A DNA stretch of 39,111 nt from an uncultured Chitinophagaceae bacterium (GTDB taxonomy: Bacteria > Bacteroidota > Bacteroidia > Chitinophagales > Chitinophagaceae). The notes beneath the pieces are model-generated. The model saw only the letters and a program-made list of their open reading frames with translations, had not been told where the DNA came from and did no database searches. This document shows positions 6,392-36,871 of the stretch, piece after piece (position 1 is the stretch's first letter; every line of letters starts with the position of its first letter). The DNA lies in the NCBI GenBank assembly GCA_937858715.1, contig CALLZY010000191.1, forward strand, positions 1 to 39,111, given 5' to 3'. Position numbers and translations under genes: made by a program.

Positions 6392-6415
6392 CCCCGGTGC
6401 CTTAGTGCACCGGGG
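6392..6415 (+). terminator. GC-rich hairpin between susD-like and GH16 genes
   Basis: CCCCGGTGC (6392-6400) pairs perfectly with GCACCGGGG (6407-6415) around a 6-nt loop. A T-run (TTTTTT) follows only about 10 bp later, so it is not a perfect intrinsic terminator. It could act as partial attenuation or as an mRNA-stabilising 3' end for susCD. This is a common arrangement in SusCD loci, where the two membrane proteins need more transcript than the enzymes. Confidence 0.6.
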
Positions 6416-6465
6416 CAATGAACAAATTTTTTAAAAGGAGGCTTTTTACCCGTCAATCAACAGGA

Positions 6466-22273: not shown

Positions 22274-22281
22274 TATTTTTG
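22274..22281 (+). promoter_or_regulatory. Upstream -7 element of the restriction-modification run
   Basis: TATTTTTG matches TAnnTTTG. It is followed by GTAATCACAATAC, which resembles the sequence after the second -7 element 65 bp downstream. No clear -33 box was found. Confidence 0.35.
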
Positions 22282-22313
22282 TAATCACAATACTTAAAAT
22301 ATTTTTTGAAAAA

Positions 22314-22346
22314 TTGTCCTTTTTAGATCAAATCAACCTATATTTG
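22314..22346 (+). promoter_or_regulatory. Probable promoter of the hsdS/hsdM run
   Basis: TTG (22314-22316) and TATATTTG (22339-22346, TAnnTTTG) are 22 bp apart. Transcription would start near 22353, about 20 nt before the GTG at 22373. A perfect dyad GTAAT-TCC-ATTAC begins at 22346 and overlaps the start site, where a repressor could bind. Confidence 0.55.
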
Positions 22347-22372
22347 TAATTCCATTACTCAATATAAATATT

Positions 22373-22933
22373 GTGAAGTATAAAATAGGTGATATCGCAA
22401 AACTCCAAACAGGCTTGTTTGCCAAACCGGAAGCGGCGGGTGAAGTAGTGTATTTACAGGTTAGACACTTTGATGAAAAGGGATTGCTTAAAACAGAACT
22501 TTACACTGATCTCAAGCATTCTAAAGTTACCGAAAAACACTTGCTTCAGGAAGGGGATATATTATTTGCTGCAAAAGGAACTAAAAATTTTGCTGCAGTC
22601 TATGAAAGTCATAATCCTCCTGCCGTGGCATCTACTTCTTTTTTTGTTATTCGGCTAAACGAATCCAGGGTGTTGCCAGCATATTTGGCCTGGTACCTTA
22701 ATCACCCCCTTATAGCAAAGCAATTAAAAGAACAGGCTATTGGCACGGCTACTCCCTCCATTTCTAAAGCGGTGCTGGAGCAACTGGAAATCCCTGTCCC
22801 AGCTGTTCAAAAACAAAAGCTGATCATTGAGCTGCAAGAACTGATAAAAAAGGAAAAGGAATTACAGGATCATATTGAAGAGCTGCGCCAAAATAATATT
22901 CAACAACAAATTTTTAAAGCAATAAATCAATAA
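22373..22933 (+). CDS. hsdS: Half-length type I restriction specificity subunit (HsdS-like, one TRD)
   Basis: This 186-residue protein has one target-recognition domain and one conserved helical region, half the size of a usual HsdS. The pattern YLQVRHFDEKG, then HLLQEGDILFAAKGT, LPAYLAWYLNHP and GTATPSISKAVLEQLEIPVP is the normal single-TRD series. It ends in a coiled-coil helix (KEKELQDHIEELRQNNIQQQ). Half-S proteins can act as dimers that recognise a symmetric split site with HsdM (known from truncated EcoDXXI/EcoR124I-type subunits). The start is a GTG at 22373, about 27 bp after the -7 element; no ATG lies near. It is followed by hsdM after 3 bp. A full-length hsdS is also present downstream, so the system may have two specificities. 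Confidence 0.88.
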   Translation: MKYKIGDIAKLQTGLFAKPEAAGEVVYLQVRHFDEKGLLKTELYTDLKHSKVTEKHLLQEGDILFAAKGTKNFAAVYESHNPPAVASTSFFVIRLNESRVLPAYLAWYLNHPLIAKQLKEQAIGTATPSISKAVLEQLEIPVPAVQKQKLIIELQELIKKEKELQDHIEELRQNNIQQQIFKAINQ

Positions 22934-22936
22934 GCA

Positions 22937-24505
22937 ATGGCAAAACAAATAACTCAGAAAGACATAAATGACGCCGTATGGAAAGCGTGCGACACCTTTC
23001 GTGGTACCATTGATCCAAGTGTATACAAAGACTACGTCCTTACCATGCTTTTTGTAAAATATTTGAGTGATGTGCATGATGATAAAATGGAAGGCTACCT
23101 GAAAAAGTATAATGGAGATAAGGAACGTGCAAAACGGGCCATGCAACACGAACGCTTTGTGATTCCAGAACACAGCCATTTTAAATATCTCTTTGAACAT
23201 AGAAATGAACCTAACATAGGCGAGTTAATCAATATTGCTTTAACCGACCTGGAAGAAGCCAACCGGGAAAAATTGTACAGTGAAGATGGGGCGGGAATAT
23301 TCCAGAACATCGATTTTAACAGCGGTAAGCTGGGAGAGCCGAAAGACAAAAATGTAAGGTTGAAAAACCTGTTGCTGGATTTTAATAAGCCAGAACTGGA
23401 TTTACGTCCGTCTCATTTGGATGGTGTTGACATCATTGGCGGCGCCTACATGTTCCTCATTGAAAATTTTGCCAGCGATGCCGGTAAAAAAGCCGGCGAA
23501 TTTTTTACGCCCAAAGAAGTATCTGCCTTGCTTGCCAAACTCACCAAATCCAAACCAGGTTCACGTATATGCGACCCCACCTGTGGGTCTGCTTCATTGC
23601 TCATAAAAGCAGGAGAAGAAGTAGGCTCCGATAATTTTTCTCTATATGGCCAGGAAGCCAATGGCAGCACTTGGGCGCTGGCGGTAATGAATATGTTTTT
23701 GCATGGGTTTGATAATGCCGTTATCCGCTGGGGTGACACAATTCGTAACCCTAAACTAAAAGTAGGTGATGAACTGATGAGGTTTGATACGGTGGTGGCC
23801 AACCCTCCTTTTTCATTGGATAAATGGGGTAAAGTGGAAGACAAGGACGGAGAGAAAACAACTGTGAGCTACGACCCAGAAACAGATCGCTACAACCGTT
23901 TCTGGCGGGGCATACCTCCAAAGAGCAAGGGCGACTGGGCGTTTATCAGCCACATGATTGAAACCCTGAATGAAAATGGTAAAGCCGGCGTAGTAGTACC
24001 ACACGGCGTTTTATTCCGGGGAGCCAGTGAAGGCAAAATAAGACAAAAGACCATTGAAGATAATTTGCTGGAAGCTGTGATTGGGTTGCCCGCCAATTTA
24101 TTTTTTGGTACCGGTATTCCAGCAGCTATTGTGATTTTTAATAAGGCCAAGGGCAAAAATAAAAACGTATTGTTTATTGATGCCAGTCAGCATTTTGAAA
24201 GCGCCAAAAATCAAAACAAACTCCGGGCGCAGGACATAGAGCACATTGTAAAAACCTATCGTGATTTTAATGCTGGTAAATTACCGGTGGGTGTAATTGA
24301 AGATAAGTTCAGTTATGTGGCCGCGCCTGCTGAACTGGCCGAAAACGACTACAACCTGAATATACCCCGCTATGTAGACACATTCGAGGAAGAACCCGAA
24401 GTGGATATCAAGGCAGTTCAGGGAGAGATTGAAAAACTCGAGGCAGAATTAAAAACAGTGCAGGCAGAAATGGACAAATACCTTAAACAGCTAAATGTGA
24501 TTTAA
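22937..24505 (+). CDS. hsdM: Type I DNA methyltransferase subunit HsdM (N6-adenine)
   Basis: This 522-residue protein transfers a methyl group from S-adenosylmethionine to adenine N6 and works in a complex with HsdS. The N-terminal helical HsdM domain (about 1-150) begins at KDINDAVWKACDTFRGTIDP. Motif I is DPTCGSASLL starting at D213, after GEFFTPKEVSALLAKL. Motif IV is NPPF starting at N289. The C-terminal helix (EIEKLEAELKTVQAEMDKYL) is the usual HsdS-contacting coiled coil. All key residues are present, so it should be active. The start ATG is 3 bp after the half-hsdS stop, and CD-NTase 1 begins 2 bp after its own stop, which ties the methylase to the CBASS-like genes. Confidence 0.95.
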   Translation: MAKQITQKDINDAVWKACDTFRGTIDPSVYKDYVLTMLFVKYLSDVHDDKMEGYLKKYNGDKERAKRAMQHERFVIPEHSHFKYLFEHRNEPNIGELINIALTDLEEANREKLYSEDGAGIFQNIDFNSGKLGEPKDKNVRLKNLLLDFNKPELDLRPSHLDGVDIIGGAYMFLIENFASDAGKKAGEFFTPKEVSALLAKLTKSKPGSRICDPTCGSASLLIKAGEEVGSDNFSLYGQEANGSTWALAVMNMFLHGFDNAVIRWGDTIRNPKLKVGDELMRFDTVVANPPFSLDKWGKVEDKDGEKTTVSYDPETDRYNRFWRGIPPKSKGDWAFISHMIETLNENGKAGVVVPHGVLFRGASEGKIRQKTIEDNLLEAVIGLPANLFFGTGIPAAIVIFNKAKGKNKNVLFIDASQHFESAKNQNKLRAQDIEHIVKTYRDFNAGKLPVGVIEDKFSYVAAPAELAENDYNLNIPRYVDTFEEEPEVDIKAVQGEIEKLEAELKTVQAEMDKYLKQLNVI

Positions 24506-24507
24506 AT

Positions 24508-25737
24508 ATGCTCACAAAAGAACAAAAACAACAATTCAGCGATATTCTGGAGGAGTTAGGCAAAACGCTTGACATCACTGAAACTCAATATGAGGCAGCG
24601 GTAAAAAGTTATGAGGCTGTTGGAAATTGGCTTGCGAAGGAAGATTCCACCCTTGCGCCATACTCACCAGAAATATTACCACAGGGCTCTTTCATGCTTG
24701 GAACAATGGTTAAACCAATTAATGATAAAGATGATTTGGATATTGACCTTGTATGCCAATTAAAAGGTAAGAATCCGGAATGGACACAAGAAGATTTGAA
24801 ACACAAAGTTGGTGACCGTTTAAAAGCACATGGAACCTACAAAGAAATGCTTGATGAAGAAGGCAGGCGTTGCTGGACTTTGGTGTATTCAGATGATGCC
24901 AATTACCACATGGATATTCTTCCCTCCATTGTTGACAAGGGCTACAGAATCATTTTGGAAAAAGCCTTTTCTGATACTGAACTAAAAGATATTGAGAAAC
25001 TAGGCATTCGTATAACCGATAATCAAACCGACAACTACGAATGGGAAACCAATCATTTAGAATGGCTGAAAAGTAATCCTTTTGGGTATGGTCGCTGGTT
25101 TTTTCAGCAAGCTACTCTTGATTTTCAAAAGGCATTTTCGCTGAATGAATCTATTGCCCCTGTGCCTAAATACAAAAAGGAAAAGCTACCACTTCAACGA
25201 GTAGTTCAAATTCTTAAACGGCACCGGGACATGCTCTTTAACGGTAATGAGCACAAGCCCATATCCATCATCATTACAACCCTGGCTTCAAAAGCCTATA
25301 ATAAGGAAACAGATATTATAGAGGCATTAATTAATGTGTTGAACAACATGGAAAACCACATTGAAGAACGCTGGTCAGATGAACATGGTAAAAAAATAAA
25401 GTGGATTTCAAATCCGGTAAATGATGAAGAGAATTTTGCTGACAAATGGCAGGAATATCCTCAACGTGAAGAGAATTTTTATCATTGGTTAAATGAGGTA
25501 AAGAAAGACTTGAACAATATCCTTGGTCAAAGTGGAAAGGGCTTACAGTACATCAATGAATCCATGGCAAAGCCATTTGGAAAGGATGCATTTACCAAAG
25601 CATTTAGTAATTACGGTGAAAACTTACGAAAGCAGCGTGAAGGTGGAAGTCTGAATGTGGCTGCAAAAACCGGAATGATTGGAACTGCCGGAACTACTGT
25701 TAAAAATCACAATTTCTATGGTAAAGAGGAACAATAG
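24508..25737 (+). CDS. CD-NTase 1 (SMODS-type cyclic oligonucleotide synthase)
   Basis: This 409-residue protein has the polymerase-beta-like nucleotidyltransferase signature of CD-NTases: GSF at residues 60-62, DDLDIDL with D78 and D80, and the third acidic residue D136 in YHMDILPS. The helical second half includes LPLQRVVQILKRHRDMLF and a serine/threonine-rich helix (HKPISIIITTLASKA), as in CBASS synthases. These enzymes make a cyclic di- or trinucleotide on phage infection, which activates an effector. The tail ends in HNFYGKEEQ. It overlaps the E2-like gene by 20 bp, typical of short type II CBASS, in which the CD-NTase is a target of the E2. The product nucleotide cannot be read from the sequence. 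Confidence 0.9.
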   Translation: MLTKEQKQQFSDILEELGKTLDITETQYEAAVKSYEAVGNWLAKEDSTLAPYSPEILPQGSFMLGTMVKPINDKDDLDIDLVCQLKGKNPEWTQEDLKHKVGDRLKAHGTYKEMLDEEGRRCWTLVYSDDANYHMDILPSIVDKGYRIILEKAFSDTELKDIEKLGIRITDNQTDNYEWETNHLEWLKSNPFGYGRWFFQQATLDFQKAFSLNESIAPVPKYKKEKLPLQRVVQILKRHRDMLFNGNEHKPISIIITTLASKAYNKETDIIEALINVLNNMENHIEERWSDEHGKKIKWISNPVNDEENFADKWQEYPQREENFYHWLNEVKKDLNNILGQSGKGLQYINESMAKPFGKDAFTKAFSNYGENLRKQREGGSLNVAAKTGMIGTAGTTVKNHNFYGKEEQ

Positions 25738-26203
25738 AATATCATTAATTGTGCAAGAGGGGACGTTGAAAAACATGTTTCCCGATGGTGTAACCAAACG
25801 CTTCCGTGAGGAATCACTCACCTGGACGTGTTCGGTAACGCCATCACCATTAAGCAGTACTTACACATTGAAATTAGAGTACCTTGGAAATAAGGGAGTA
25901 AAAGTTTATGTGCTTGACCCTAAACCATTACCCCTAGCAGCAGGAAAGAAACATTTGCCCCACGTTTATTCCACACCCGAACAAAGGCTCTGCTTATACT
26001 ATCCTAACAGAATTGAGTGGAATGTTGGGATGCTTTATACCAGAACAATAATTCCCTGGGCTTGCGAATGGCTGTGCCATTACGAGCTATGGGTATGCAC
26101 AGGCACATGGCATGGCGGCGGCATACACCACGAAACAGAAGCAGAAAAACAAGCCAACAAACAAAAAGAAACAATTGATGAAGCCAGCAGCGGTAGAAAA
26201 TAA
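25718..26203 (+). CDS. Stand-alone E2-like protein of CBASS type (candidate conjugating enzyme)
   Basis: This 161-residue protein lacks an E1 or JAB domain. The central part resembles an E2 (UBC-like) fold: a beta-meander with YTLKLEYLGNKGVKVYVLDP, then LPHVYSTPEQRLCLYYP, where C92 is in the place of the catalytic cysteine. It is followed by EWNVGMLYTRTIIPWACEWL and CHYELWVCTGTWHGGGIHH, a pattern I associate with the E2 family next to CD-NTases. In short type II CBASS such an E2 modifies the CD-NTase C-terminus without an E1. The ATG at 25718 overlaps the CD-NTase 1 stop by 20 bp, supporting coupling. The tail is lysine- and glutamate-rich. Family assignment is from memory of the pattern, hence moderate confidence. 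Confidence 0.68.
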   Translation: MVKRNNRISLIVQEGTLKNMFPDGVTKRFREESLTWTCSVTPSPLSSTYTLKLEYLGNKGVKVYVLDPKPLPLAAGKKHLPHVYSTPEQRLCLYYPNRIEWNVGMLYTRTIIPWACEWLCHYELWVCTGTWHGGGIHHETEAEKQANKQKETIDEASSGRK

Positions 26204-27542
26204 ACCTAAGGTTGATACAAAACCATTTTACAATTCAGTCATTCCGAATGATTGGGACACTCCTTTCTTTGGTTCAGTTTTCACATTTTTAAAGACCTAT
26301 TCCTTTTCTAGGGAACAGCTTACAAATGAAAAGACTAAAGATGAACTTCGTAATATCCATTACGGAGATATACATGCAACTTTTGAGAATGAAATACTTG
26401 ATTTAGAAATTGAAAAAACTATTCCTTACCTACTTGACGGTATCATTGATAAAGCAAAATTTGGAGATGATGACTTCCCATCTTTAAAGGATGGTGATTT
26501 AATCATTGCTGATGCATCTGAAGATTATGAAGGAGTTTGCGATTGTATTGAATTGAAAAATGTAAAGGAATCCAAATTAATAGCAGGTTTACACACGTTT
26601 GCAGCAAGAACGACAGAAGATAAGGTTGCTCTAGGTTATCGAACGTATGTTTTAAAACAGCAACAAGTTATAAGAGAATTAAGACGAATAGCCACTGGAA
26701 CATCCGTTTATGGTGTTTCGAAAACAAATCTTTCAGAAGTTAAAATTGCTCTTCCACCCTTACAAGAGCAGAAAACCATTGCCGATGTATTAAGCAAATT
26801 TGATGTATCAATTCACACCATAAATAAACTGATAGCCCAGAAACAGCTTCGCAAAAAATGGCTCATGCAAAACTTGTTGACGGGTAAGATGCGTTTGAAA
26901 GGGTTTGAGAAATCAATTGGTTATCATAAAACTGACTTGGGTCTTGCAATACCCATAGACTGGAAAATTATTAAAGTAAAAGATATTTTCAATGAAAGGA
27001 AGGAAACTTCAAAAGACCAATCGATATATCCATTATTTAGCCTGACGATTGAAAGCGGATTAACAGAAAAGACGGATAGATACGAAAGAAGTTTTCTACT
27101 TAAAAACAAGGAAGAAAACTTATATAAGTTAATTTATCCGAATGATATTCTGTTCAACCCAATGAACCTGAGATTTGGAGCTATTGCCAAATCGAAAATT
27201 AATTCGATTGTATCGGTTTCTGCTTACTACAATTCTATATTCCTTACAGAGAATAATACGGATATTGATTATTATGAAGCATTATTTAAAACTCCAGTTT
27301 TCATTAATCTATATGACAGGATAGCAATAGGTTCTTTGATTGAGAAAAAGAGGGTTCATCTTTCTAACTTTTTAGAACTTGAAATTCCACAACCATGTAA
27401 AGAAGAACAAACTGCCATTGCACAAGTGTTGCAAGCAGCTGACAAGGAAATATCGCTATTGAAAGCTAAAGCAAATATGCTGCGAGAAAAGAAAAAGGGC
27501 TTGATGCAACAATTATTAACCGGGAAAATCAGAATCAAATAA
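26178..27542 (+). CDS. hsdS: Full-length type I restriction specificity subunit HsdS (two TRDs)
   Basis: This 454-residue protein determines the DNA sequence recognised by the type I complex. TRD1 (about 15-215) contains FLKTYSFSREQL and ends in the conserved KTNLSEVKIALPPLQEQKTI; a central helix ends in MQNLLTGKMRLKG. TRD2 (about 245-420) starts at IPIDWKIIKVKDIF and ends before CKEEQTAIAQVL; the final helix ends MQQLLTGKIRIK. The two conserved regions match each other, as expected for HsdS. The ATG at 26178 gives a 26-bp overlap with the E2-like gene; an upstream ATG at 26112 would add 22 lysine-rich residues. The patatin gene starts 1 bp after its stop. Separated from hsdM by the CD-NTase/E2 pair. 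Confidence 0.94.
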   Translation: MKPAAVENKPKVDTKPFYNSVIPNDWDTPFFGSVFTFLKTYSFSREQLTNEKTKDELRNIHYGDIHATFENEILDLEIEKTIPYLLDGIIDKAKFGDDDFPSLKDGDLIIADASEDYEGVCDCIELKNVKESKLIAGLHTFAARTTEDKVALGYRTYVLKQQQVIRELRRIATGTSVYGVSKTNLSEVKIALPPLQEQKTIADVLSKFDVSIHTINKLIAQKQLRKKWLMQNLLTGKMRLKGFEKSIGYHKTDLGLAIPIDWKIIKVKDIFNERKETSKDQSIYPLFSLTIESGLTEKTDRYERSFLLKNKEENLYKLIYPNDILFNPMNLRFGAIAKSKINSIVSVSAYYNSIFLTENNTDIDYYEALFKTPVFINLYDRIAIGSLIEKKRVHLSNFLELEIPQPCKEEQTAIAQVLQAADKEISLLKAKANMLREKKKGLMQQLLTGKIRIK

Positions 27543-27543
27543 T

Positions 27544-28617
27544 ATGGCAGAACCATTTAAAATATTATCCATAGATGGAGGCGGCATCAGAGGTGTATTT
27601 CCTGCCATGCTTTTAGCCAACTTTGAAGCAGAACTCAAAGCCAAGGGCATCGAAAAATGGCAAGTGTATCAAAACTTCGATTTAATCTGTGGCACTTCTA
27701 CTGGCGGAATTATGGCCATTGCACTTTCTTTAGGTATACCTGCTAAAGAGATTTATGAAATGTATTTGAACAATGCCGATACCATTTTCAGTAACAAAAA
27801 GGGCTTTCTCAAAAGATTCAAATATTCAGCGCACAATCGTGATGCTTTAGAAAAGTTGATTAAGGATAAATACAAGGCTTACCACAACGGTGAAGATGGA
27901 GAAGACCCAAGATTAAAGCATTGTAAAACACATGTTGCAATTCCAATTTACGATTTAATGGAAGGCAGACCATCGGTTTTAAAAAGTAATTATCACCCTG
28001 CCTTTGTAAGAGACTTTCACATTCCGGCATATCAGGCAGCTTTAGCAACTTCTGCTGCTCCAACCTACTTTGACCCATATTCGGCTTCATACATAGATTT
28101 AAATGGTTTAGAAAAACCGTTTCAGAACAAAGTAGATGGAGGCGTTTTTGCTAACAATCCCACGCTTAACGGAATTATAGAAGCCCAAAAGGCATTCAAT
28201 CTGGATCTAAAAGACCTTTCAGTATTATCAATCGGTACAGGACACCAACGCTTTTGTGATGCTGGTATTGATAAGAAAAAAAATCATCGGGCAAAATATG
28301 GTATTCATTATTGGATGCTTGAAGATGGCAAGAAGCGGTTGATTGAAGTTTTTATGCAAGGCCAAACACAACAAGTTCAAAACCTGATTAGCATATTGAA
28401 AAATGGGATTGATAGACGAGAGCCAGATAACTTTCACTACATCCGAATTGACACGCAATTAGATGAAAGTTGTCCAATAGAAATGGATGAAACCGACAAA
28501 GAGAAACTAAAAAAACTGGCTGAAAAAGCCAACATAGAATTTCAAAATAATGCTACCAATATTATTAAGAGTTTTGGGAATGGCAGTCGGTGGGCTGATT
28601 CTCAAAGAACTGTTTAG
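27544..28617 (+). CDS. Patatin-like phospholipase, CBASS effector (CapV-like)
   Basis: This 357-residue protein is a patatin-type lipid acyl hydrolase. It shows the glycine-rich oxyanion loop DGGGIRGVFP (residues 11-20), the nucleophile S52 in CGTSTGG and the catalytic aspartate D198 in DGGVFANNP. In CBASS, CapV is switched on by a cyclic nucleotide and degrades membrane phospholipids, causing abortive infection. There is no signal peptide or TM segment, as expected of a soluble effector. The ATG is 1 bp after the hsdS stop, and CD-NTase 2 begins 25 bp after its own stop; patatin followed directly by a CD-NTase is the classic capV-dncV order. It may also serve CD-NTase 1, which has no effector of its own nearby (inference). 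Confidence 0.93.
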   Translation: MAEPFKILSIDGGGIRGVFPAMLLANFEAELKAKGIEKWQVYQNFDLICGTSTGGIMAIALSLGIPAKEIYEMYLNNADTIFSNKKGFLKRFKYSAHNRDALEKLIKDKYKAYHNGEDGEDPRLKHCKTHVAIPIYDLMEGRPSVLKSNYHPAFVRDFHIPAYQAALATSAAPTYFDPYSASYIDLNGLEKPFQNKVDGGVFANNPTLNGIIEAQKAFNLDLKDLSVLSIGTGHQRFCDAGIDKKKNHRAKYGIHYWMLEDGKKRLIEVFMQGQTQQVQNLISILKNGIDRREPDNFHYIRIDTQLDESCPIEMDETDKEKLKKLAEKANIEFQNNATNIIKSFGNGSRWADSQRTV

Positions 28618-28642
28618 CGATGACGAAATAAATTACAACGAC

Positions 28643-29509
28643 ATGGCAAATACACATAATCAATTTTTAAAGTTCGAGCAAGCCATCTCACTTACCAAAG
28701 GGAGAAAGGATAAACTCATTGCATCTCGTCAGGCTTTGCAAAAAAGAATTGTTGAATTTTTCAAAACCAAAACGAAAGTTCCGGTTCCTAAATTTTACAT
28801 TCAAGGTTCATACAAAATGAAAACCATGGTGGTGAAGAAAGACGGGAGCTATGACGTTGATTTAGGTGTTTACTTTCTTGCCAAACCTTCAATTGAACCG
28901 CTGACTTTACAGAAGTATGTTGCTGAGGCAGTAAAAGACCAAACCGTTTCGGGCATTGAACATAAAGAAAAGTGTATCAGGGTAATTTACAAAGGTGATT
29001 TTGATATTGACTTACCAGTCTATTACAAAACTCCAAACGATAAACACCCGTTTCTTGCCACAAAAACCAAATGGCAGGAAAGCGATCCCAAAGAATTATG
29101 CGACTGGTTTGAAAAACAACGCAAGGCAAAAGACAAAGATGGTCAGATGCTTCGCTTAGTCAAATATTTCAAAACATGGGCAAACCAGAGGAGCAGAAAA
29201 ATGCCAAGTGGTATTGCATTCAGTGTTTGGGTAGCTACACATTACAAACCAAACACAAGAGATGATATTGCTTTTTACGAAACAGCCAAGGCCATCAAGA
29301 ATTCTTTTGGTTGGGAAACAGCAAGTAAAAATCCTGCAACACCCGGTGATGACTTTCTTGCTAAACTAGACAGTAATCAGAAAAGTAATTTCAAGGAAGC
29401 ATTTAACGAATTGATAAAACAAGCCGAACAAGCCTTGCAACAAGACAATCAAACCAAAGCATTAAACATTTGGAAACAGCAGTTCGGAGATAAGTTTCCG
29501 GTAATATAA
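28643..29509 (+). CDS. CD-NTase 2 (DncV-like cyclic dinucleotide synthase)
   Basis: This 288-residue protein has GSYKMKT (G55, S56), the metal-binding YDVDLGVYF (D71, D73) and DFDIDLPVYY (D119, D121, D123) with the third acidic residue. The helical part includes LRLVKYFKTWANQRSRKM and PSGIAFSVWVATHY. It is shorter than CD-NTase 1 and clearly a different branch. By neighbourhood with a CapV-like patatin it may make 3',3'-cGAMP, but this is inferred. The ATG at 28643 (MANTHNQFLKF) is preferred; the frame extends upstream into the patatin gene (ATG 28550 or 28577), but those starts would add an unlikely segment and overlap the patatin end. The GGDEF gene follows after 10 bp. Confidence 0.9.
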   Translation: MANTHNQFLKFEQAISLTKGRKDKLIASRQALQKRIVEFFKTKTKVPVPKFYIQGSYKMKTMVVKKDGSYDVDLGVYFLAKPSIEPLTLQKYVAEAVKDQTVSGIEHKEKCIRVIYKGDFDIDLPVYYKTPNDKHPFLATKTKWQESDPKELCDWFEKQRKAKDKDGQMLRLVKYFKTWANQRSRKMPSGIAFSVWVATHYKPNTRDDIAFYETAKAIKNSFGWETASKNPATPGDDFLAKLDSNQKSNFKEAFNELIKQAEQALQQDNQTKALNIWKQQFGDKFPVI

Positions 29510-29519
29510 CTATACATAA

Positions 29520-30281
29520 ATGGCAAATTATTTTCGAGAATCCATTAAGAAATTTAAAAATGATGCTTTATCAAAGGGCATTTACGATGTGCTGAAATGG
29601 CTCATTATATTTCTTGTTTTACTAATTCCAACAAAATGGATTCCAGTTGTTAAAGATATTATTTTGAAAGGGTATAGTATTTCTGCTTATATCCTTATTA
29701 TCGCTTCCCTGCTGATAATTACAGGCACTGCTTTAATCGTTGGACGAATATTTAAGAAACGAATAAAAGAAGTGTTGAAAGATAGTCACACTGATGAGTT
29801 AACCGGATTGAAAAATCATAAAGCACTTAATGAATTTCTGAATCTTAAACTTCAAGAGTACAAAAGCAAGTCAGAACCTCTTTCTATTATCATTTTGGAT
29901 ATAGACGACTTCAAAAACTTTAATACTCTATGGGGTTTTAATGTTTCGGACCAGTTATTAAAAAAACTAGGCGAACTTCTGAATAATGACAAAAGAGCTA
30001 CCGATGAAACCTTTAGGTATTTTAACAGGGGTGATGAGTTTTTGGTAGTTGCGAGTGAAACAAGTTTAAGTCAGGCAAAACAAGCAGCAGAAAGGAAAAG
30101 AAAGCTGATTGAAAGAAACTTATTCTCGGTTGATGGAACAAATCACAGATTAACCGTTAGTTGTGGTGTGACCGAACTAAAGAAAAGTGACGACTATACA
30201 AGCTTAACGGATAGAGTTGTAGAAGCACTCAATGAAGCAAAAAAGATTAAAGGAAAAAACAATACAACATCTATTGTCTAA
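29520..30281 (+). CDS. Two-TM GGDEF-domain protein in the CBASS run
   Basis: This 253-residue protein has two transmembrane helices (about residues 22-45, VLKWLIIFLVLLIPTKW, and 54-75, AYILIIASLLIITGTALIV), then a cytoplasmic GGDEF domain from about residue 90 (DELTGLKNHKALNEFL). The metal-binding SIIILDIDDFKNFN is intact and the signature is RGDEF (170-174), an allowed variant. An RATD stretch ahead of it resembles an I-site but is spaced two residues longer than usual. A conserved SCGVTEL follows. It is therefore likely an active cyclase, classically producing c-di-GMP. GGDEF proteins are uncommon in Bacteroidota and have no set role in CBASS. Its stop overlaps the start of the phosphoesterase gene (TAATG), suggesting a synthase/hydrolase pair. 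Confidence 0.88.
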   Translation: MANYFRESIKKFKNDALSKGIYDVLKWLIIFLVLLIPTKWIPVVKDIILKGYSISAYILIIASLLIITGTALIVGRIFKKRIKEVLKDSHTDELTGLKNHKALNEFLNLKLQEYKSKSEPLSIIILDIDDFKNFNTLWGFNVSDQLLKKLGELLNNDKRATDETFRYFNRGDEFLVVASETSLSQAKQAAERKRKLIERNLFSVDGTNHRLTVSCGVTELKKSDDYTSLTDRVVEALNEAKKIKGKNNTTSIV

Positions 30282-31045
30282 TGTCACTCAAACTCCAATA
30301 CGCATCTGATCTCCACATCGAGTTCCCTGCCAACAAGGAATTCTTGCGGCAGCACCCATTACAGCCTGTGGGTGAGGTGCTGGTATTGGCAGGAGATATT
30401 GTGCCGTTTGCTATAATGGACAAACACAAAGATTTTTTTAGTTATGTAAGTGATCATTTTGAAACTACGTTCTGGCTGCCTGGCAATCATGAGTATTATC
30501 ATTTTGATATAACTGAGAGAAGCGGGGTACTGAATGAGAAAATCCGCACTAATGTGTTTCTAGTTAATAATATTTCTGTGTTGCATGATAATATAAGACT
30601 CATTTTTTCTACCCTGTGGAGTAAAATCAGTATCGACAATCAGTGGCAAATAGAGAGAAGTCTCAATGATTTTCATCTCATCAAGCACAAAGGAGTTCGC
30701 TTTTCAGCTGAGCAGTATAACCAACTACATAATGAAAGCCTGGCGTTTATTCAAAACGAGCTGAAAGCGACACAAGTGGAAAAAACGGCTGTTTTCTCTC
30801 ATCATTGTCCTACTTTTCTCAACTATCCGGAGCAATACAAAGGCGATGTATTAAATGAAGCTTTTGCCGTGGAGTTGTTTGACTTGATTGAAACCTCCAA
30901 AACTAATTATTGGGGTTATGGGCATCACCATCTTAACACACCGGAATTTCACATTGGGATTACCAGGCTCATTACCAATCAGTTGGGTTACGTTAAACAA
31001 AACGAGTACGAATTATTCGATACAAATAAGTGCATATTTATTTGA
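30281..31045 (+). CDS. Calcineurin-like metallophosphoesterase
   Basis: This 254-residue soluble protein shows the full metallophosphoesterase motif set: D10-x-H12 (YASDLHIEF), GDI with D39 (VLAGDIV), GNHE with N69 and H70, FSHHCP, and GHHH near the C-terminus. These residues bind two metal ions and cleave phosphomono- or diesters. The substrate is unknown; phosphodiesterase activity on a cyclic nucleotide is an attractive reading because the start overlaps the GGDEF gene stop and two CD-NTases are in the same run. Alternatively it could be a nuclease-type effector or housekeeping enzyme. No signal peptide or TM helix is seen. It is the last gene before the promoter at 31041, so it may end a transcription subunit. 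Confidence 0.9.
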   Translation: MSLKLQYASDLHIEFPANKEFLRQHPLQPVGEVLVLAGDIVPFAIMDKHKDFFSYVSDHFETTFWLPGNHEYYHFDITERSGVLNEKIRTNVFLVNNISVLHDNIRLIFSTLWSKISIDNQWQIERSLNDFHLIKHKGVRFSAEQYNQLHNESLAFIQNELKATQVEKTAVFSHHCPTFLNYPEQYKGDVLNEAFAVELFDLIETSKTNYWGYGHHHLNTPEFHIGITRLITNQLGYVKQNEYELFDTNKCIFI

Positions 31046-31071
31046 AATACAATTTGATATATTTATTTTTG
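31041..31071 (+). promoter_or_regulatory. Canonical promoter of the AbiE-like pair
   Basis: TTTG (31041-31044), a 19-bp spacer and TATTTTTG (31064-31071, TAnnTTTG) match the Bacteroidota consensus closely. A perfect 10-bp palindrome TATAGCTATA (31077-31086) covers the expected start site near 31078 and is a likely repressor site, fitting autoregulation by the first gene product. Confidence 0.7.
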
Positions 31072-31114
31072 CACGATATAGCTATAAGGTTTATTGTGCA
31101 AAAAACTGTTTATC

Positions 31115-32137
31115 ATGGAGTATAAAATGATGGATACAATAAGATATATTCAGGAAACGCTGAATATCGAGACATTGGTAGCTCCGATAGCCAAAAGCTA
31201 CCGGGCCAGGCTACCCATATATATACAGGAAACTTATGATCTGTACAACGCGACGCTTTTTAATACAGAAATCATATTCGCGGAGCTGAAAGCCGGAAAT
31301 GAAATAAGTATTCAGCAAACTGATAAACAGGTTCAGCTAATAAAGAATCAGCTTCAGCGAAAAGTTGTGGTGGTTTTGAAAAATGTAGCGGCTTATAACC
31401 GTAAAAGACTAATTGAAAAAGGAATCAATTTTATTGTGCCTGGAAAGCAATTATACTTACCCGACTTGCTAGTTGATTTAAGAGAAAGTTATAGCAATTT
31501 TAGGGCGAAGCAAAAAAAAGAAAAATTATTGCCATCAGCTCAATTTGTTTTGATTTACCATATCATCCATCGGTACAATGAGTGGAAACTGGAAGAACAT
31601 TCATTTAAGGAAATAGCTAAAAAAATAGACTACACTCCGATGGCTATTACTAATGCTATTGATAATTTGAAATATCATGGGATGGTGGATGTACTGGGGG
31701 AAAAGGAAAAGTATATCCGGTTTAAATACGAAAGACAAGAATTATGGAATATAGCAGAGCAGCAACAACTTTTAGTAAACCCAGTATTAAAAAAGGTTTT
31801 TATTGACGAAAAACCAAGAGACCTTTTTCTTTTAGAAAGTAACTTATCTGCTCTTCCTGAATATACTGATCTAAATCCAAGTAAGCAGCAATATTATGCG
31901 ATTGAGAAAACTGTTTTTTATGGCTTGCAAAAAAGTAATGCTTTGGTGAATATTAATGAGCATGAAGGCCGATTTGTACTAGAGGTATGGAAGTATAATC
32001 CATTGACTTTAGTTGATCAACTGCCCAATGAACTTGGGGTGGTGGATCCTCTTTCTTTATACCTAAGTGTAAAAGACAGCAAAGACGAAAGAATCGAAAT
32101 AGCATTAGATCAAATTTTAGAAAAATTTATATGGTAA
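31115..32137 (+). CDS. AbiEi-like winged-helix antitoxin/regulator
   Basis: This 340-residue protein is the first gene of a pair with a nucleotidyltransferase. A winged-helix DNA-binding segment of MarR type lies at about residues 145-210 (FVLIYHIIHRYNEWKLEEHS, FKEIAKKIDYTPMAITNAID, NLKYHGMVDVLG). The remaining parts are unrecognised. In type IV toxin-antitoxin AbiE systems the first protein both represses the operon and counteracts the toxin. Its stop overlaps the toxin start by 7 bp (ATGGTAA), and a canonical promoter with a palindrome sits upstream. The ATG at 31115 is chosen because the in-frame TTG at 31094 is close to the expected transcription start; ATGs at 31127 and 31130 are also possible. 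The classical AbiEi family is not obvious by sequence, so this is by layout. Confidence 0.65.
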   Translation: MEYKMMDTIRYIQETLNIETLVAPIAKSYRARLPIYIQETYDLYNATLFNTEIIFAELKAGNEISIQQTDKQVQLIKNQLQRKVVVVLKNVAAYNRKRLIEKGINFIVPGKQLYLPDLLVDLRESYSNFRAKQKKEKLLPSAQFVLIYHIIHRYNEWKLEEHSFKEIAKKIDYTPMAITNAIDNLKYHGMVDVLGEKEKYIRFKYERQELWNIAEQQQLLVNPVLKKVFIDEKPRDLFLLESNLSALPEYTDLNPSKQQYYAIEKTVFYGLQKSNALVNINEHEGRFVLEVWKYNPLTLVDQLPNELGVVDPLSLYLSVKDSKDERIEIALDQILEKFIW

Positions 32138-32904
32138 GAGGATTAGACATATTTAAGAAATACTTTGAGCAGTATCCCAATAACTATGTGATTATTGGCG
32201 GAACTGCATGTGATATTATTATTGATGAAGCAGGCTTTGTACCAAGAGCTACAAAAGATATTGACATTATTTTGGTAGTAGAAGCCTTGAACAGTGCTTT
32301 TGTAAAGCAATTTTGGCAATTCATTAATGATGGACAGTATCAACAACGGGAAAAGAGCAACGATGAGCGAGAGTATTATCGTTTCATAAAGCCCGCTAAT
32401 ACAGACTTCCCGCATCAAATTGAACTTTTTTCAAGAACACCCGATATAATTGTACTGGAAGACAATGCCCACCTAACTCCCATTCCGGTTGATGATGACC
32501 TGTCAAGTCTTTCAGCTATTCTTCTAAATGACGATTATTATAATTATATGATTGGGCATAGTCGGGTTGAAGACGGATTACACCACGCCAACATAGAAGC
32601 TTTGATATGCTTAAAAGCCAAGGCTTTTTTGGAAATCAAGGAAAGGATTGAAAATGGAAGTAAAGAAGACAAAAAGCAAATGAAAAAACATAAAGCAGAT
32701 GTTTTCAGGTTAACAGTAATGCTCACGCCGGAATCTGAATTTGATTTGCCCGAAACGATACAAACAAATATTAATCAGTTTTCGAAATTGATAGAAGAAG
32801 ATTTGCCGGATGAAGCCATTTTTAAAGAAATGGGGTTGAACAACATTGATCCAAGTAAAATATTTGACCAATTTAAAAAGTCGTTCAAAGTAAAGGAGTC
32901 TTAG
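32131..32904 (+). CDS. AbiEii-like nucleotidyltransferase toxin
   Basis: This 257-residue protein has the polymerase-beta-like motif of AbiEii/MenT toxins near its N-terminus: VIIGGTACDIIIDEAG followed by PRATKDIDIILV, with the D-x-D pair of metal ligands. A lysine-containing helix HHANIEALICLKAKAFLEIK follows, where the lysines commonly take part in catalysis. AbiEii-type toxins transfer nucleotides to tRNA or other targets and stop growth after phage infection; the target is unknown here. It overlaps the regulator stop by 7 bp. The charged C-terminal part (about 175-257) is of unclear role. The pair lies between the CBASS-like genes and hsdR, so it is an inserted cassette with its own promoter. 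Confidence 0.82.
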   Translation: MVRGLDIFKKYFEQYPNNYVIIGGTACDIIIDEAGFVPRATKDIDIILVVEALNSAFVKQFWQFINDGQYQQREKSNDEREYYRFIKPANTDFPHQIELFSRTPDIIVLEDNAHLTPIPVDDDLSSLSAILLNDDYYNYMIGHSRVEDGLHHANIEALICLKAKAFLEIKERIENGSKEDKKQMKKHKADVFRLTVMLTPESEFDLPETIQTNINQFSKLIEEDLPDEAIFKEMGLNNIDPSKIFDQFKKSFKVKES

Positions 32905-32951
32905 CAACTGGTTACAGCGATACAAACCCTGTAAAAAAAGTTTTGAATGAA

Positions 32952-35900
32952 ATGAATACGCCAAGCTTTAAAGAAGATCATATTAGTCAGATACCAGCAT
33001 TGCAATTATTGCAAAAACTGGGATATAGCTACTTAACACCGTCAGAAGCCGATAGAATGCGTGGCGGTAAAAGCAGCAATGTGCTTTTGGAAGATGTATT
33101 ACGTAAACAGTTAAAAGAGATCAACAGTATCAAGGTAAGTGCAACACGTATCGGTCTTTTCACTGACGAGAATATTGAAAAAGGCATTCTGGCATTGAAA
33201 GAGCTCCCCATGCACGAGGGTTATATTACTGCGTGCGAAGCTGCTTATAATTTATTGACTCTTGGTAAGGCACTGGAGCAATCCATAGACGGCGATAAGA
33301 AAAGTTTTACCCTTCAATACATTGACTGGAAAAATATTCATAACAATGTATTTCATGTAACCGAAGAATACAGCGTAATGCGCAGTAGCAGTAAAGAGCA
33401 TTACAGGCCTGATATTGTACTTTTTGTAAATGGTATTCCCTTTTGCATTATTGAATGTAAACGGCCTGATATGAAAGAGCCGTTAAGCCAGGCTATCAGT
33501 CAGCAATTAAGAAGTCAGCAAGAAGATGGGATAAGAAGTTTGTATGTGTATGCACAAATATTATTAAGCATAGCTACCAGAGAGGCATTATATGGTACGA
33601 ATGCAACACCCGAAAAATTTTGGTCGAAATGGCAGGAAAAATTTTCAAACTCAGAAGGCGAAAAAAGCTATAAAGAATCGGTAAAGCATTTAAAGAATAC
33701 TCCATTAGATATTGATCAAAAAGAAAAATTGTTTTCTGACCGGTTTAAATATGTACGCCAATATTTTGACGCGATGGAGCAGGAACAGATTGAACCTACC
33801 GTGCAGGATGAATATCTATACAACCTTTGTCGCCCCGAACGTTTATTGGATATTACCTTCAATTTCGTGCTATTTGATGATGGAGAAAAAAAGGTTGCGA
33901 GATACCAGCAATATTTTGCTATAAAGAAAGCAATGCGCAGGCTATTAAAGCTAGAGAATGGAAAAAGACAAGGCGGTGTAATCTGGCATACCCAGGGAAG
34001 TGGCAAATCGTTAACAATGGTAATACTGGCAGAAGCAATAGCGCTTGAGCCGAGCATAAAAAATCCCAAGATAATATTAGTAACGGATCGTACAGACCTG
34101 GATGATCAAATCACAAAAACATTTAGAAAGTGTGGCAAGTTTGTAGAAAATGCCAGTACTGGCCAACGTTTGGTTGAGTTGCTGGAAAACAAGAGTGATG
34201 CGGTTATAACTACTATCATTAATAAGTTTAATGCTGCTGTTAAGAAAATCAGTAGCCCACTGGAAAGTCCTGATATTTTTGTGCTGGTGGATGAGGGCCA
34301 CCGTACCCAGCATGGCTTGTTTAATATTGATATGCAAAAGACATTGCCCAACGCTTGTTTTATTGCCATGACTGGAACACCGTTATTTAAGAGGGATAAA
34401 AATACTGCAGCTAAGTTTGGGGGTATCATAGACGCTTATACAGTTGATGAAGCGGTAACCGATAAAGCGGTGGTACCCTTACTATATGAGGGGCGAGTAG
34501 CGAGGCAAAACGTGAACGAGAGCCCGATTGATACATTTTTCGGCATGGTATCGGAGCCGCTCACAGATTATCAAAAAGCTGATCTTAAAAAGAAATTTTC
34601 CAGGTCAGATCAGTTAAATGGGGCTGAGCAAAAAATATACGCTATCGCATGGGATATAAGTCTGCACTTTCGTAATAATTGGCAAGGGACACCCTTCAAA
34701 GGGCAATTGGTTTGTGATAAGAAAGTCAATGCTATTCGCTATAAAGAGTTTTTAGATGAAATAGGCATAGTTACCTCAGAGTTACTTATATCCCCTCCTG
34801 ATGAAAGAGAGGGTGAGGAGAGCGCTTATGAAAAGTCTAATGAGCGGGTTAACAAGTTTTGGAAGCGCATGATGGAAGAACATGGGAACTCCAAAACGTA
34901 TGAAAAAAATATCATTAGCCGGTTTAAAAATCAGAAAGACCCGGAAATTATCATTGTGGTCGACAAGTTGTTAACCGGATTTGACGAACCGAAAAACACG
35001 GTATTGTACTTAACAAGAAATCTACAAAGCCATAAGCTATTGCAGGCTATAGCAAGAGTAAATAGGATTTACCCAGACAAAGAATTTGGTTATATAATTG
35101 ATTACTATGGTGTAATTGAAAATCTTGATGATGCGCTCAAGATGTACTCTTCTTTTGAGGATTTTGATAGTGAAGACCTGGCTGGGACGTTGACAAATAT
35201 CAAGGACGAAGTAATGAAATTGCCCCAACGCCTTTCTGAACTTTGGGATATTTTCAAGGAGATAAAAAACAAACGTGATGCCGAAGCATATCAACTATTA
35301 TTGAAAGACGAAGCCATACGTGTAGTTTTTTATGATAAACTGGCATCTTACGCAAAGAGTCTTAAGCTTGCGATGTCTTCAATTGACTTTCATCAGCAAA
35401 CCGAAGAAAATATTATCAACAAGTATAAGGAAGATCTTGCGATGTTCCTGAAGTTAAGAATTGCAGTTGTCGAAAGGTATAGCGATGAAATAGATTACAA
35501 GCAATATGAGGGGCAGATTCAAAAGTTGATAGATACTCATATCACCACAGAGAAGATAGAGACTATCACTGAGCTGGTAAATATTTTTGACAAAGAAAAA
35601 TTTCAACAGGAAGTAGAGAACACCATTGGCAAAGCTGCTAAAGCAGACAAAATCGCTAGCAGGACGTCAAAGCATATAAGTGAAAAAATGGAAGAAGATC
35701 CTGCCTTTTATAAAAAGTTTTCTCAAATGCTGAAAGAAGCAATTGCCGATTATGAAGCTAAGCGTATTAATGAAGCACAATATTTAAACAGGGTTCAGGA
35801 TATTATGAATAATGTGCTATCACATACCGATACAGATATTCCGGTTGTTCTGAATGAAAGAGATGTTGCAAAGGCGTTTTATGGTTTGACGGTAGAAACA

Positions 35901-36176
35901 TTGCATGAAAAACTACAGGACGATATTGTCAGAAGGGAATTATCTGTGCAGGCAGCTATTCATATTGATGATTTAGTTAAAGATGCGGTTTTGGATAATG
36001 GGAAAGCCATTGTAGATTGGCAGCACAAGTCAAATATTACTGGCAAGCTGCAAATTGATATTGGGGATTACTTAATTGACGAGGTGAGAGACAAATATGG
36101 CATCAATCTTTCATTTGGCGAGATGGATGAAATTGCTGAAAAGTGCATTGAGGTGGCAAAACTCCGTTATAAGTAA
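32952..36176 (+). CDS. hsdR: Type I restriction endonuclease subunit HsdR
   Basis: This 1,074-residue protein is the motor and nuclease of the type I complex: it translocates DNA using ATP and cuts at collision. The PD-(D/E)xK nuclease lies at about residues 150-170 (RPDIVLFVNGIPFC, then IIECKRPD). The SF2 helicase follows with Walker A HTQGSGKS (about 346-353), DEGHRTQHG (Walker B, about 447) and AMTGTPL. Later helicase motifs include VVDKLLTGFDEP and LQAIARVNR. The C-terminal helical region ends in KCIEVAKLRYK. All key motifs are intact. The ATG at 32952 is used; an in-frame TTG at 32943 would add three residues. Its stop overlaps the YgjP-like gene by 1 base. It lies about 8.4 kb away from hsdM because of the intervening genes. 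Confidence 0.96.
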   Translation: MNTPSFKEDHISQIPALQLLQKLGYSYLTPSEADRMRGGKSSNVLLEDVLRKQLKEINSIKVSATRIGLFTDENIEKGILALKELPMHEGYITACEAAYNLLTLGKALEQSIDGDKKSFTLQYIDWKNIHNNVFHVTEEYSVMRSSSKEHYRPDIVLFVNGIPFCIIECKRPDMKEPLSQAISQQLRSQQEDGIRSLYVYAQILLSIATREALYGTNATPEKFWSKWQEKFSNSEGEKSYKESVKHLKNTPLDIDQKEKLFSDRFKYVRQYFDAMEQEQIEPTVQDEYLYNLCRPERLLDITFNFVLFDDGEKKVARYQQYFAIKKAMRRLLKLENGKRQGGVIWHTQGSGKSLTMVILAEAIALEPSIKNPKIILVTDRTDLDDQITKTFRKCGKFVENASTGQRLVELLENKSDAVITTIINKFNAAVKKISSPLESPDIFVLVDEGHRTQHGLFNIDMQKTLPNACFIAMTGTPLFKRDKNTAAKFGGIIDAYTVDEAVTDKAVVPLLYEGRVARQNVNESPIDTFFGMVSEPLTDYQKADLKKKFSRSDQLNGAEQKIYAIAWDISLHFRNNWQGTPFKGQLVCDKKVNAIRYKEFLDEIGIVTSELLISPPDEREGEESAYEKSNERVNKFWKRMMEEHGNSKTYEKNIISRFKNQKDPEIIIVVDKLLTGFDEPKNTVLYLTRNLQSHKLLQAIARVNRIYPDKEFGYIIDYYGVIENLDDALKMYSSFEDFDSEDLAGTLTNIKDEVMKLPQRLSELWDIFKEIKNKRDAEAYQLLLKDEAIRVVFYDKLASYAKSLKLAMSSIDFHQQTEENIINKYKEDLAMFLKLRIAVVERYSDEIDYKQYEGQIQKLIDTHITTEKIETITELVNIFDKEKFQQEVENTIGKAAKADKIASRTSKHISEKMEEDPAFYKKFSQMLKEAIADYEAKRINEAQYLNRVQDIMNNVLSHTDTDIPVVLNERDVAKAFYGLTVETLHEKLQDDIVRRELSVQAAIHIDDLVKDAVLDNGKAIVDWQHKSNITGKLQIDIGDYLIDEVRDKYGINLSFGEMDEIAEKCIEVAKLRYK

Positions 36177-36871
36177 TGACATCGTATATACAATTTGGTT
36201 CAAAGAGAATTGATTTTAAGCTGGAGTATTCTGATCGTAAATCGCTTGGAATAACAGTAACGCCAGACCCATTTGTTGTTGTGAAAGCTCCTGCCGGTTC
36301 ATCATTGGATCAGGTAAAAAATAAGTTACAAAATAAGGCACCCTGGATAATTAAACAACGAAATTATTTTCTTTCATTTCATCCGAAGACACCACCGAGA
36401 AAATATGTGAGCGGAGAGACACATCTGTATCTTGGAAGACAATACAGATTAAGAGTAGTTAAAGGGAGTTCGGACGAAGTTAAGTTGAAGGGTAAATTCA
36501 TTGAAGTTGTTACTACTAATAAATATCCTGTCAAAACATTGCTCAATTCATGGTATCTTAATCATGCTAAAGATAAATTTACGATCATTGCTCTGCCATT
36601 AATTGAGCGATTCAAAAAGTATAAAGTAGAGCCTACCTGTATTCAAATACGAGAGATGTCTGCACGATGGGGAAGTTGTACCCCTAAAGGAAAAATAATT
36701 CTAAACCCCGATCTCATAAGGGCTCCCAAAGCCTGTATCGAGTATGTTGTTGTTCATGAATTATGTCATTTAGTTTATCATGAACACAGCCAACGATTTA
36801 TTGATCTTCAAACCAGGGAAATGAAAGACTGGGAAAAGTGGAAGCAGAAACTGGAAAAATTATTGGCCTGA
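36176..36871 (+). CDS. YgjP/WLM-like metallopeptidase (DUF45)
   Basis: This 231-residue protein is a zinc-dependent M48-type hydrolase of the YgjP (DUF45) family. The metal-binding motif is HELCH (H194, E195, H198), followed by a candidate third ligand in YHEHS. The family signature EMSARWGSC, then KGKIILNPDLI, precedes it. The N-terminal beta-rich part starts with IQFGSKRIDFKLEY. Members are often found next to type I restriction genes (family knowledge), and a role in controlling the restriction subunit is possible but not shown. The ATG overlaps the hsdR stop by one base (TAATG), so translation is coupled. No signal peptide: cytoplasmic. It is the last gene of the rightward defence run; no clear terminator follows. 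Confidence 0.9.
   Translation: MTSYIQFGSKRIDFKLEYSDRKSLGITVTPDPFVVVKAPAGSSLDQVKNKLQNKAPWIIKQRNYFLSFHPKTPPRKYVSGETHLYLGRQYRLRVVKGSSDEVKLKGKFIEVVTTNKYPVKTLLNSWYLNHAKDKFTIIALPLIERFKKYKVEPTCIQIREMSARWGSCTPKGKIILNPDLIRAPKACIEYVVVHELCHLVYHEHSQRFIDLQTREMKDWEKWKQKLEKLLA

Follow-up and report, generated by a model that had tools for sequence, protein, structure and literature searches.

CBASS genes on both sides of hsdS in a two-slot type I restriction-modification operon of a Chitinophagaceae bacterium

Introduction

Type I restriction-modification (R-M) operons can carry foreign defence genes between their hsd genes. In the parts of the articles that were available, as for all articles cited here, PrrC is embedded in a type I operon (PMC12707154), TgvAB of V. 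cholerae is embedded in another (PMC11411939), and DarTG2 is embedded in an RptR-controlled type I island, RRDM (PMC12255303). In this study, a run of genes at positions 22373-36871 of a 39,111-nt stretch (the window, one entire contig, CALLZY010000191.1, of a genome with 282 contigs) from an uncultured Chitinophagaceae bacterium was analysed. In this run, genes of cyclic-oligonucleotide-based antiphage signalling systems (CBASS) lie on both sides of hsdS.

Like the operons of PrrC, TgvAB and DarTG2, the run has foreign defence genes between hsd genes. As in the RRDM island, described in the available part of that article, cargo separates hsdS from hsdR, a metallopeptidase gene follows, and the front carries palindromic operators. 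The run differs in having CBASS genes on both sides of hsdS, two slots, a half-hsdS as the first gene instead of rptR, and other dyads. The hallmarks of RptR-controlled islands, rptR in first position and TAGCTA repeats, were not found, half-hsdS and GTA-N7-TAC dyads standing there instead (no RptR-profile search was made). No description of a type I hsd operon that contains CBASS or splits it was found, including in the available parts of PMC12988326 and PMC7394358; subscription journals and bioRxiv work on guilt by embedding were beyond reach. An earlier reading of the sequence alone (the sequence-only reading) had taken the interleaving as unusual. The interleaving of CBASS and hsd genes is real, but defence genes between hsd genes were already known, and what is new here is CBASS lying on both sides of hsdS in a two-slot operon.

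The run is probably one allele of a two-slot type I R-M operon of Bacteroidota, in which the slots around hsdS are divided between E2-CBASS and CapV-type CBASS, with transcription shared and with restriction and CBASS coupled mainly at the level of expression. What is established is its gene content and order, the kept junctions, the changing cargo, the kept dyad pair and the fact that E2, the patatin and cyclase 2 diverge together across hsdS in six loci.

Genes and Junctions of the Run

All genes of the run lie on the plus strand. Slot A is the space from hsdM to hsdS, and slot B that from hsdS to hsdR.

22373..22933, plus strand: half-hsdS, with a single target recognition domain (PF01420, 2.3e-12)
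22937..24505, plus strand: hsdM (N6_Mtase/HsdM_N; PF02384, 1e-98; PF12161)
24508..25737, plus strand: CD-NTase 1, a CdnG-like cyclase, slot A (PADLOC PDLC00780, 4.6e-143; PDB 8hsb_A, 2.1e-41)
25718..26203, plus strand: E2-like protein, slot A (PDLC00863, 2.7e-51; 8hsb_B, 1.5e-14)
26178..27542, plus strand: full hsdS (PF01420; PADLOC Specificity_I, 1.1e-68)
27544..28617, plus strand: patatin-like phospholipase of the CapV type, slot B (PF01734; NF041079, 254.5 bits, cut-off 200)
28643..29509, plus strand: CD-NTase 2, cGAS/DncV type, slot B (NF041078, 192.2 bits, cut-off 150; PDB 7ljo, 2.4e-56)
29520..30281, plus strand: GGDEF protein, slot B (PF00990, 1.3e-31; RGDEF signature and hydrophobic N terminus by eye)
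30281..31045, plus strand: calcineurin-like phosphoesterase, slot B (Metallophos, PF00149, 3.3e-09)
31115..32137, plus strand: winged-helix-like protein, first of a pair, slot B (MarR, 0.0032, under the Pfam cut-off)
32131..32904, plus strand: second of the pair, nucleotidyltransferase-like by eye (GGT...DID), with no meaningful family match in Pfam, PADLOC or NCBIfam
32943..36176, plus strand: hsdR (HSDR_N/SWI2_SNF2; PF04313, PF18766, PF22679)
36176..36871, plus strand: YgjP-like metallopeptidase (PF01863, 2.6e-53)

HsdR, HsdM and HsdS are all present with their Pfam domains, which makes up the type I gene set. CD-NTase 1 and E2 are placed with E2-CBASS because they match both chains of the solved SmCdnG-E2 complex (PDB 8hsb); CD-NTase 1 stays under the NCBIfam cGAS cut-off (82.3 vs 150). 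The tail of CD-NTase 1 ends in ...NHNFYGKEEQ, a glycine followed by four residues, and no E1 or JAB gene was matched among the run proteins scanned with Pfam. A type II short CBASS with only an E2 is mentioned in the available part of PMC11153139. As in that type, represented by SmCdnG-E2, a CD-NTase is accompanied by an E2 alone. Unlike there, the effector of the window is not beside E2 but across hsdS in the same run, and a second cyclase follows the effector. The patatin and CD-NTase 2 adjoin each other and exceed the NCBIfam cut-offs of the CapV-type lipase and cGAS models, as in CapV-DncV CBASS, and the patatin could belong to CD-NTase 2; unlike in that system, the pair stands inside an R-M operon behind hsdS and is followed by the GGDEF and phosphoesterase genes. 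The labels given by PADLOC in the run are Cyclase, E2 and phospholipase effector. Catalytic signatures look intact by eye: GS and DxD in both cyclases, GTSTG in the patatin, RGDEF in the GGDEF protein and NPPF in HsdM.

The genes are closely packed. Gaps measure 3 bp from half-hsdS to hsdM, 2 bp from hsdM to CD-NTase 1, 1 bp from hsdS to the patatin, 25 bp from the patatin to CD-NTase 2 (counted from the ATG at 28643 in an open reading frame (ORF) that opens at 28550), 10 bp from CD-NTase 2 to GGDEF and 38 bp from the pair to hsdR. Overlaps measure 20 bp between CD-NTase 1 and E2, 26 bp between E2 and hsdS, 7 bp within the pair, and 1 bp both from GGDEF to phosphoesterase and from hsdR to ygjP. 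The most likely start of E2 is the ATG at 25718, giving 161 residues. The distance from the phosphoesterase to the pair is 48 bp with an uncorrected start; the gene probably starts at the ATG at 31115, so the gap would be 69 bp and hold a promoter-like element. The gene order and junction lengths given by the sequence-only reading agree with the ORFs, the Pfam, PADLOC and NCBIfam families and the recomputed coordinates. Its AbiE-like label for 31094-32904 was not borne out: no AbiE match was obtained in Pfam, PADLOC or NCBIfam, and a PDB sequence search gave nothing convincing.

Recurrence of the Interleaved Order

With CD-NTase 1 as the query, a scan of species genomes, limited in its reach to close relatives, yielded 10 loci, L018-L027 (L010-L064 denote comparison loci on other contigs, and the window is counted alongside them where stated). 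The R-M frame surrounds CD-NTase 1-E2 in seven of them (L018-L024), Bacteroidota contigs that share the order hsdM, CD-NTase 1, E2, hsdS, CBASS effector, hsdR, whereas L025-L027 have no match to the R-M genes of the window's operon. The proposal that genes of one system are inserted between the subunits of the other, for which a genome search for the same order had been suggested, is supported by these seven contigs. The contig of L023 begins inside hsdM, with half-hsdS out of view, and that of L018 ends inside hsdR.

The junctions are also kept. The gap between hsdM and CD-NTase 1 is 1-3 bp in 7/8 near loci, being 2 bp in the window, L019, L021, L023 and L024, 1 bp in L020 and 3 bp in L022; the exception is L018, with an 81-residue ORF in between. 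CD-NTase 1 and E2 overlap by 20 bp in the window and L018-L020 and by 17 bp in L022 (L021, L023 and L024 are not settled). The overlap of E2 with hsdS is 26 bp in the window, L018, L019 and L024, and likewise in L020 and L022 (start at 11671), and 23 bp in L023, that of L021 being not settled. Chance or an assembly artefact is rejected as the source of the order, which occurs in other assemblies, and CD-NTase 1 also stands in slot A of L012, L013 and L054, loci found through HsdM.

Relatives of CD-NTase 1 were present in 8/395 genomes of a phylum sample, at nine places, three in R-M loci (the window, G171 and G290) and six outside. A strict tie of this kind of CBASS to this R-M family is rejected, as 6/9 places have no such locus in the ~20 kb fetched. 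A weak HsdM-like match (27%) lies near the CD-NTase 1 relative of L016.

A Two-Slot Frame With Changing Cargo

An HsdM search at E <= 1e-170 gave hits in 24/395 genomes of the phylum sample and 19/395 of a class sample, together 39 genomes and 41 places. Forty were examined (the window, L012, L013 and L028-L064), and one in G268, near a contig end, was left out. As far as the contigs reach, the common frame is half-hsdS, hsdM, slot A, hsdS, slot B, hsdR and usually ygjP. Half-hsdS, labelled like the rest of the frame by BLAST to the window proteins and matched at only 25-35% identity in its divergent copies, stands 5' of hsdM in 39/40 loci including the window, L044 beginning at hsdM. Both hsdS and hsdR follow in 37/40 (the contigs of L047, L056 and L058 end before), and ygjP in 34/40; four contigs end before it (L042, L047, L056, L058), and L040 and L063 are without it.

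The cargo of the slots is recurrent and variable. CBASS-type cyclases occur in at least 6/40 loci (the window, L012, L013, L029, L037, L054) and a Pycsar cyclase in at least 2/40 (L033, L052), these counts being lower bounds, since many slot genes lie outside the family scan and several have no label. Other cargo includes SduA (Shedu), QatA, Tin-like, Fic, AlbA_2, DUF3800 and PADLOC candidate families. In the window, CBASS genes occupy both slots, cyclase 1 with E2 in slot A and the patatin with cyclase 2 in slot B. Because the slots also hold unrelated cargo, adjacency alone does not prove that the two machines talk to each other.

Relatives of the GGDEF protein (72-75%) stand behind CD-NTase 2 in L018, L019 and L024. 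Those of the phosphoesterase also accompany other cargo (L028, L039, L049, L050, L053, L060), and its role as a dedicated off-switch of CBASS is weakened by its occurrence with many other cargo genes. YgjP was dropped as a candidate maturase of the CD-NTase 1 tail, as ygjP is found in many loci without CBASS. The first of the pair (the gene at 31115) has relatives of 74% in L028 and 53% in L053, and the second of 86% and 71%, respectively. The trio of phosphoesterase and unclassified pair (30281-32904 in the window) recurs in slot B of L028 (8827-11456) and in slot A of L053.

CBASS Genes Across hsdS

In all nine loci that have cyclase 1 in slot A without a slot-A effector (the window, L018-L024, L054), slot B holds a patatin or an HNH-SAVED gene. 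L018 holds both, and in L019 one gene precedes the effector. For comparison, among loci whose slot B is complete and whose slot A lacks CD-NTase 1, BLAST found a slot-B patatin or HNH-SAVED in 1/33; the exception, L037, has patatin, cyclase and E2 together in slot B. Slot B of L029 holds another CD-NTase. Conversely, the HNH-SAVED effector lies in slot A before CD-NTase 1 in L012 and L013, and slot B there has no patatin or HNH-SAVED (in L013, two small ORFs were outside the scan). The HNH-SAVED label comes from Pfam and PADLOC in L012 and L025 and from 42-55% identity in L013, L018, L020 and L021.

L020 and L021 each have just one recognised CBASS cyclase and one recognised CBASS effector, with hsdS between the two, and only there is the split plain. 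L054, which was found through HsdM, repeats the split with a different type of cyclase 1 and without E2. The CD-NTase 1 variants of L012 and L054 have 514 and 511 residues and no separate E2 gene, and the extra C-terminal part in L012 is unlike the other tails. In L023, a third CD-NTase-like gene (5649-6527, 31% to CD-NTase 2) lies directly behind CD-NTase 2.

Away from the R-M frame, the same genes stand together without hsdS: CD-NTase 1, E2, patatin and CD-NTase 2 in L010, and CD-NTase 1, E2 and patatin in L011, L026 and L027. These loci bear on a guard model, in which CBASS would be activated when the restriction enzyme is inhibited or modification is lost, so that a phage anti-restriction protein would lead to cell death. 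The gene order permits the necessary co-expression, and PrrC, according to the available part of PMC12707154, is an established case of a guard embedded with a type I enzyme. The CD-NTase 1/E2/patatin relatives in these four loci (39-60%) have no matches to the R-M genes of the window's operon in the searched flanks, so the sensor need not depend on HsdRMS, and a PrrC-like guard is quite improbable.

Linked Divergence and Apparent Exchange

The identities between the window and L024 are mosaic, being 89% for HsdM, 65% for CD-NTase 1, 93% for E2, 35% for HsdS, 93% for the patatin, 94% for CD-NTase 2 and 81% for HsdR. In DNA comparisons, the CBASS stretches flanking hsdS reach 83-91% to L018, while hsdM and hsdR have 66-81% and hsdS hardly aligns. 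Among six loci, E2 distances track those of CD-NTase 2 (rho 0.89, 15/720 permutations as high) and of the patatin (0.70, 39/720), patatin distances track CD-NTase 2 (0.69, 44/720), and HsdM distances track HsdR (0.48, 32/720). HsdM does not track E2 (-0.02), nor HsdS CD-NTase 2 (0.21, 184/720). E2, patatin and cyclase 2 thus diverge jointly across hsdS, and hsdM and hsdR diverge jointly but separately from them. The last 80 residues of CD-NTase 1 track E2 (rho 0.85), and the remainder does not (-0.15; 28 pairs, 8 loci). This covariation of tail and E2 is expected if E2 acts on the tail, but neighbouring DNA would also move together.

The bodies of the R-M-embedded CD-NTase 1 proteins do not form a single clade (p-AU 1.3e-6, long branches flagged), and that of L024 is sister to that of L010, outside the operon, with support 100/99. 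One capture followed by vertical descent is not supported by this tree. From the lack of a single clade and the mosaic identities, CBASS parts seem to have been exchanged between embedded and other sites, yet they land in the same place.

The tree and the many unrelated genes in the slots would also suit independent cargo, that is, slots acting as a recombination hotspot that holds two self-sufficient systems, neither regulating nor needing the other. We consider this improbable. The junctions are kept almost to the base, E2 co-diverges with CD-NTase 2 and the patatin across hsdS, and every locus found with an effector-less slot-A cyclase 1 has an effector on the other side.

Promoter Dyads at the Front

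Three elements precede the run:

22281..22293, plus strand: operator-like dyad, copy 1, GTAATCACAATAC (GTA-N7-TAC)
22339..22346, plus strand: putative -7 promoter element, TATATTTG
22346..22358, plus strand: operator-like dyad, copy 2, GTAATTCCATTAC, directly 5' of half-hsdS

The element TATATTTG fits the Bacteroidota -7 consensus. TAnnTTTG leads into the second dyad in the window, L019-L022, L024 and L028-L030, and the -33 element is poor. The dyads, mostly GTAR-N5-YTAC, lie upstream of half-hsdS at -14 to -27 and at -51 to -100 (alignment was used to adjust the half-hsdS start in nine first-set loci and in no second-set locus). Two dyads were present in 14/28 loci, against a mean of 0.007 and a maximum of 1 in dinucleotide shuffles, and no pair was found in a control stretch further upstream (0/26). 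In the second sample, two exact copies occur in 6/17 loci, the second copy of L054 and of L055 carries one mismatch, and L048 has one copy. No dyad was found before half-hsdS in L057-L064 and L032-L034. The copies are 37-75 bp apart in 20 loci including the window, clustering at 44, 54, 65 and 75 with the exceptions 37, 67 and 68. For a phase of 10.5 bp, R is 0.80, and 0.63 over nine distinct values, the loci being related. This spacing, mostly near whole helical turns, may mean that both sites lie on the same side of the helix.

Other elements were seen by eye. L035, L036 and L038 have a different palindrome, approximately TRCAGWAAACnnTTTACTGYA, partly in two copies; one copy is at about -30 in L035 and L038, and all three loci have one near -90, that of L038 being imperfect. 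A further related element occurs in L042, L043 and L045-L047. The dyad was not supported as the mark of a genome-wide regulon, as TTTGTA-N7-TAC occurs at 67 places vs 70 for the reversed control.

Dimeric repressors typically bind dyads of this size. They may well be ordinary operators of a transcription factor coded elsewhere and unrelated to HsdS, an explanation to which we give somewhat less than an even chance. A candidate of this kind is a divergent 79-residue ORF in the window (21881-22120), helix-turn-helix-like by eye, and loci L032-L034 have the same class of half-HsdS and lack the dyad. On the other side, only L035 and L038 of the 28 loci share an ORF within 1.5 kb upstream, so no conserved regulator gene lies there, and the 79-residue ORF as the common regulator is not supported, having no relative beside half-hsdS in the loci searched, L010-L047 (L048-L064 were outside the search).

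Another possibility involves half-HsdS itself. Homodimeric S subunits with a single target recognition domain (TRD) recognise sites such as GAA-N7-TTC and GAAY-N5-RTTC, as reported in the available part of PMC3874165. Half-HsdS resembles such single-TRD subunits (EcoR124I delta50, EcoDXXI truncations, NgoAV) in its one TRD, and their sites share the geometry of the promoter dyads; here, in contrast, half-hsdS lies beside a full hsdS, and dyad binding is hypothetical. This shared geometry and the position of the half-hsdS gene lead us to hypothesise that half-HsdS, together with HsdM, recognises the promoter of its own operon. The two would form a palindrome-specific methyltransferase with GTAR-N5-YTAC twice in its own promoter, and binding or methylation would keep the operon low; loss, block or dilution of the methyltransferase would derepress all genes, HsdR and CBASS included. 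We hold this to be unlikely. The hypothesis does not account for the absence of the dyad in L032-L034, whose half-HsdS is about as similar to that of the window (34-37%) as that of L013 or L037 (34-37%). If the hypothesis were true, the operon would sense how far it is modified and would mobilise restriction along with abortive defence.

Probable Shared Expression and Points Against It

One promoter with the two dyads appears to drive the run at least to the phosphoesterase. The sequence-only reading had proposed that restriction and CBASS-type defence may share one mRNA; up to the phosphoesterase, the kept packing and the front dyad pair make this likely, but a second promoter is possible before the gene at 31115. 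Two features concern the transcript further on:

31041..31104, plus strand: possible internal promoter TTTG-N19-TATTTTTG with the inverted repeat TTTTTGCAC...GTGCAAAAA
37244..37279, plus strand: terminator-like hairpin of 15 pairs, the longest stem of 8 sites and a possible end of the run

The inverted repeat of this possible promoter is not kept in L028.

If the operon works as read here, HsdM, HsdS and HsdR would form the first layer by cutting unmodified DNA. A phage that escapes would lead the cyclases to make a cyclic dinucleotide, cyclase 1 being conjugated by E2 through its C-terminal tail; the cyclic dinucleotide would open the patatin, membrane lipids would be degraded and the infected cell would be stopped. 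The coupling would act mainly at the expression level, with both layers made, swapped and transferred together. The interleaving and the apparently shared promoter suggest that phage defence is turned on jointly at two levels.

Several points weigh against this account. The patatin and CD-NTase 2 of the window could be a complete CBASS by themselves, and the split in the window is not proven. Seven of the nine split loci come from the CD-NTase 1-seeded scan and are related, so they are not nine independent cases. CD-NTase 2 of L018 lies in two overlapping ORFs (14996-15875), either a broken gene or an assembly error. The permutation tests of divergence rest on six loci, with 21 comparisons uncorrected, and are weak statistics; in them, E2 also tracks HsdS somewhat (rho 0.44, 56/720), and whole CD-NTase 1 tracks neither E2 (0.05), patatin (0.20) nor CD-NTase 2 (-0.11). 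A second promoter before the gene at 31115 could possibly uncouple hsdR. Terminator-like sites (8 vs 11.9) and sigma-70-like sites across the run (41 vs 48.0) are not above shuffles, so the transcript ends are not settled by sequence.

If one promoter does serve restriction and CBASS around hsdS, the two layers of immunity would be able to evolve as one unit, and the slots would serve as a ready-made list of partners of type I enzymes. This makes testable the standing question of whether neighbouring defence systems are stored together or switched on together. The kept promoter dyads offer a concrete handle on it, and a half-HsdS that possibly controls its own operon would tie methylation state to abortive infection.

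Flanking Genes

Upstream of the run, a single ORF of 2779 codons extends over 12005-20344. Directly after the operon, a serine recombinase gene (PF00239, PF07508) at 37535-39109 is cut by the contig end, and given this gene, the run may lie on a mobile element.

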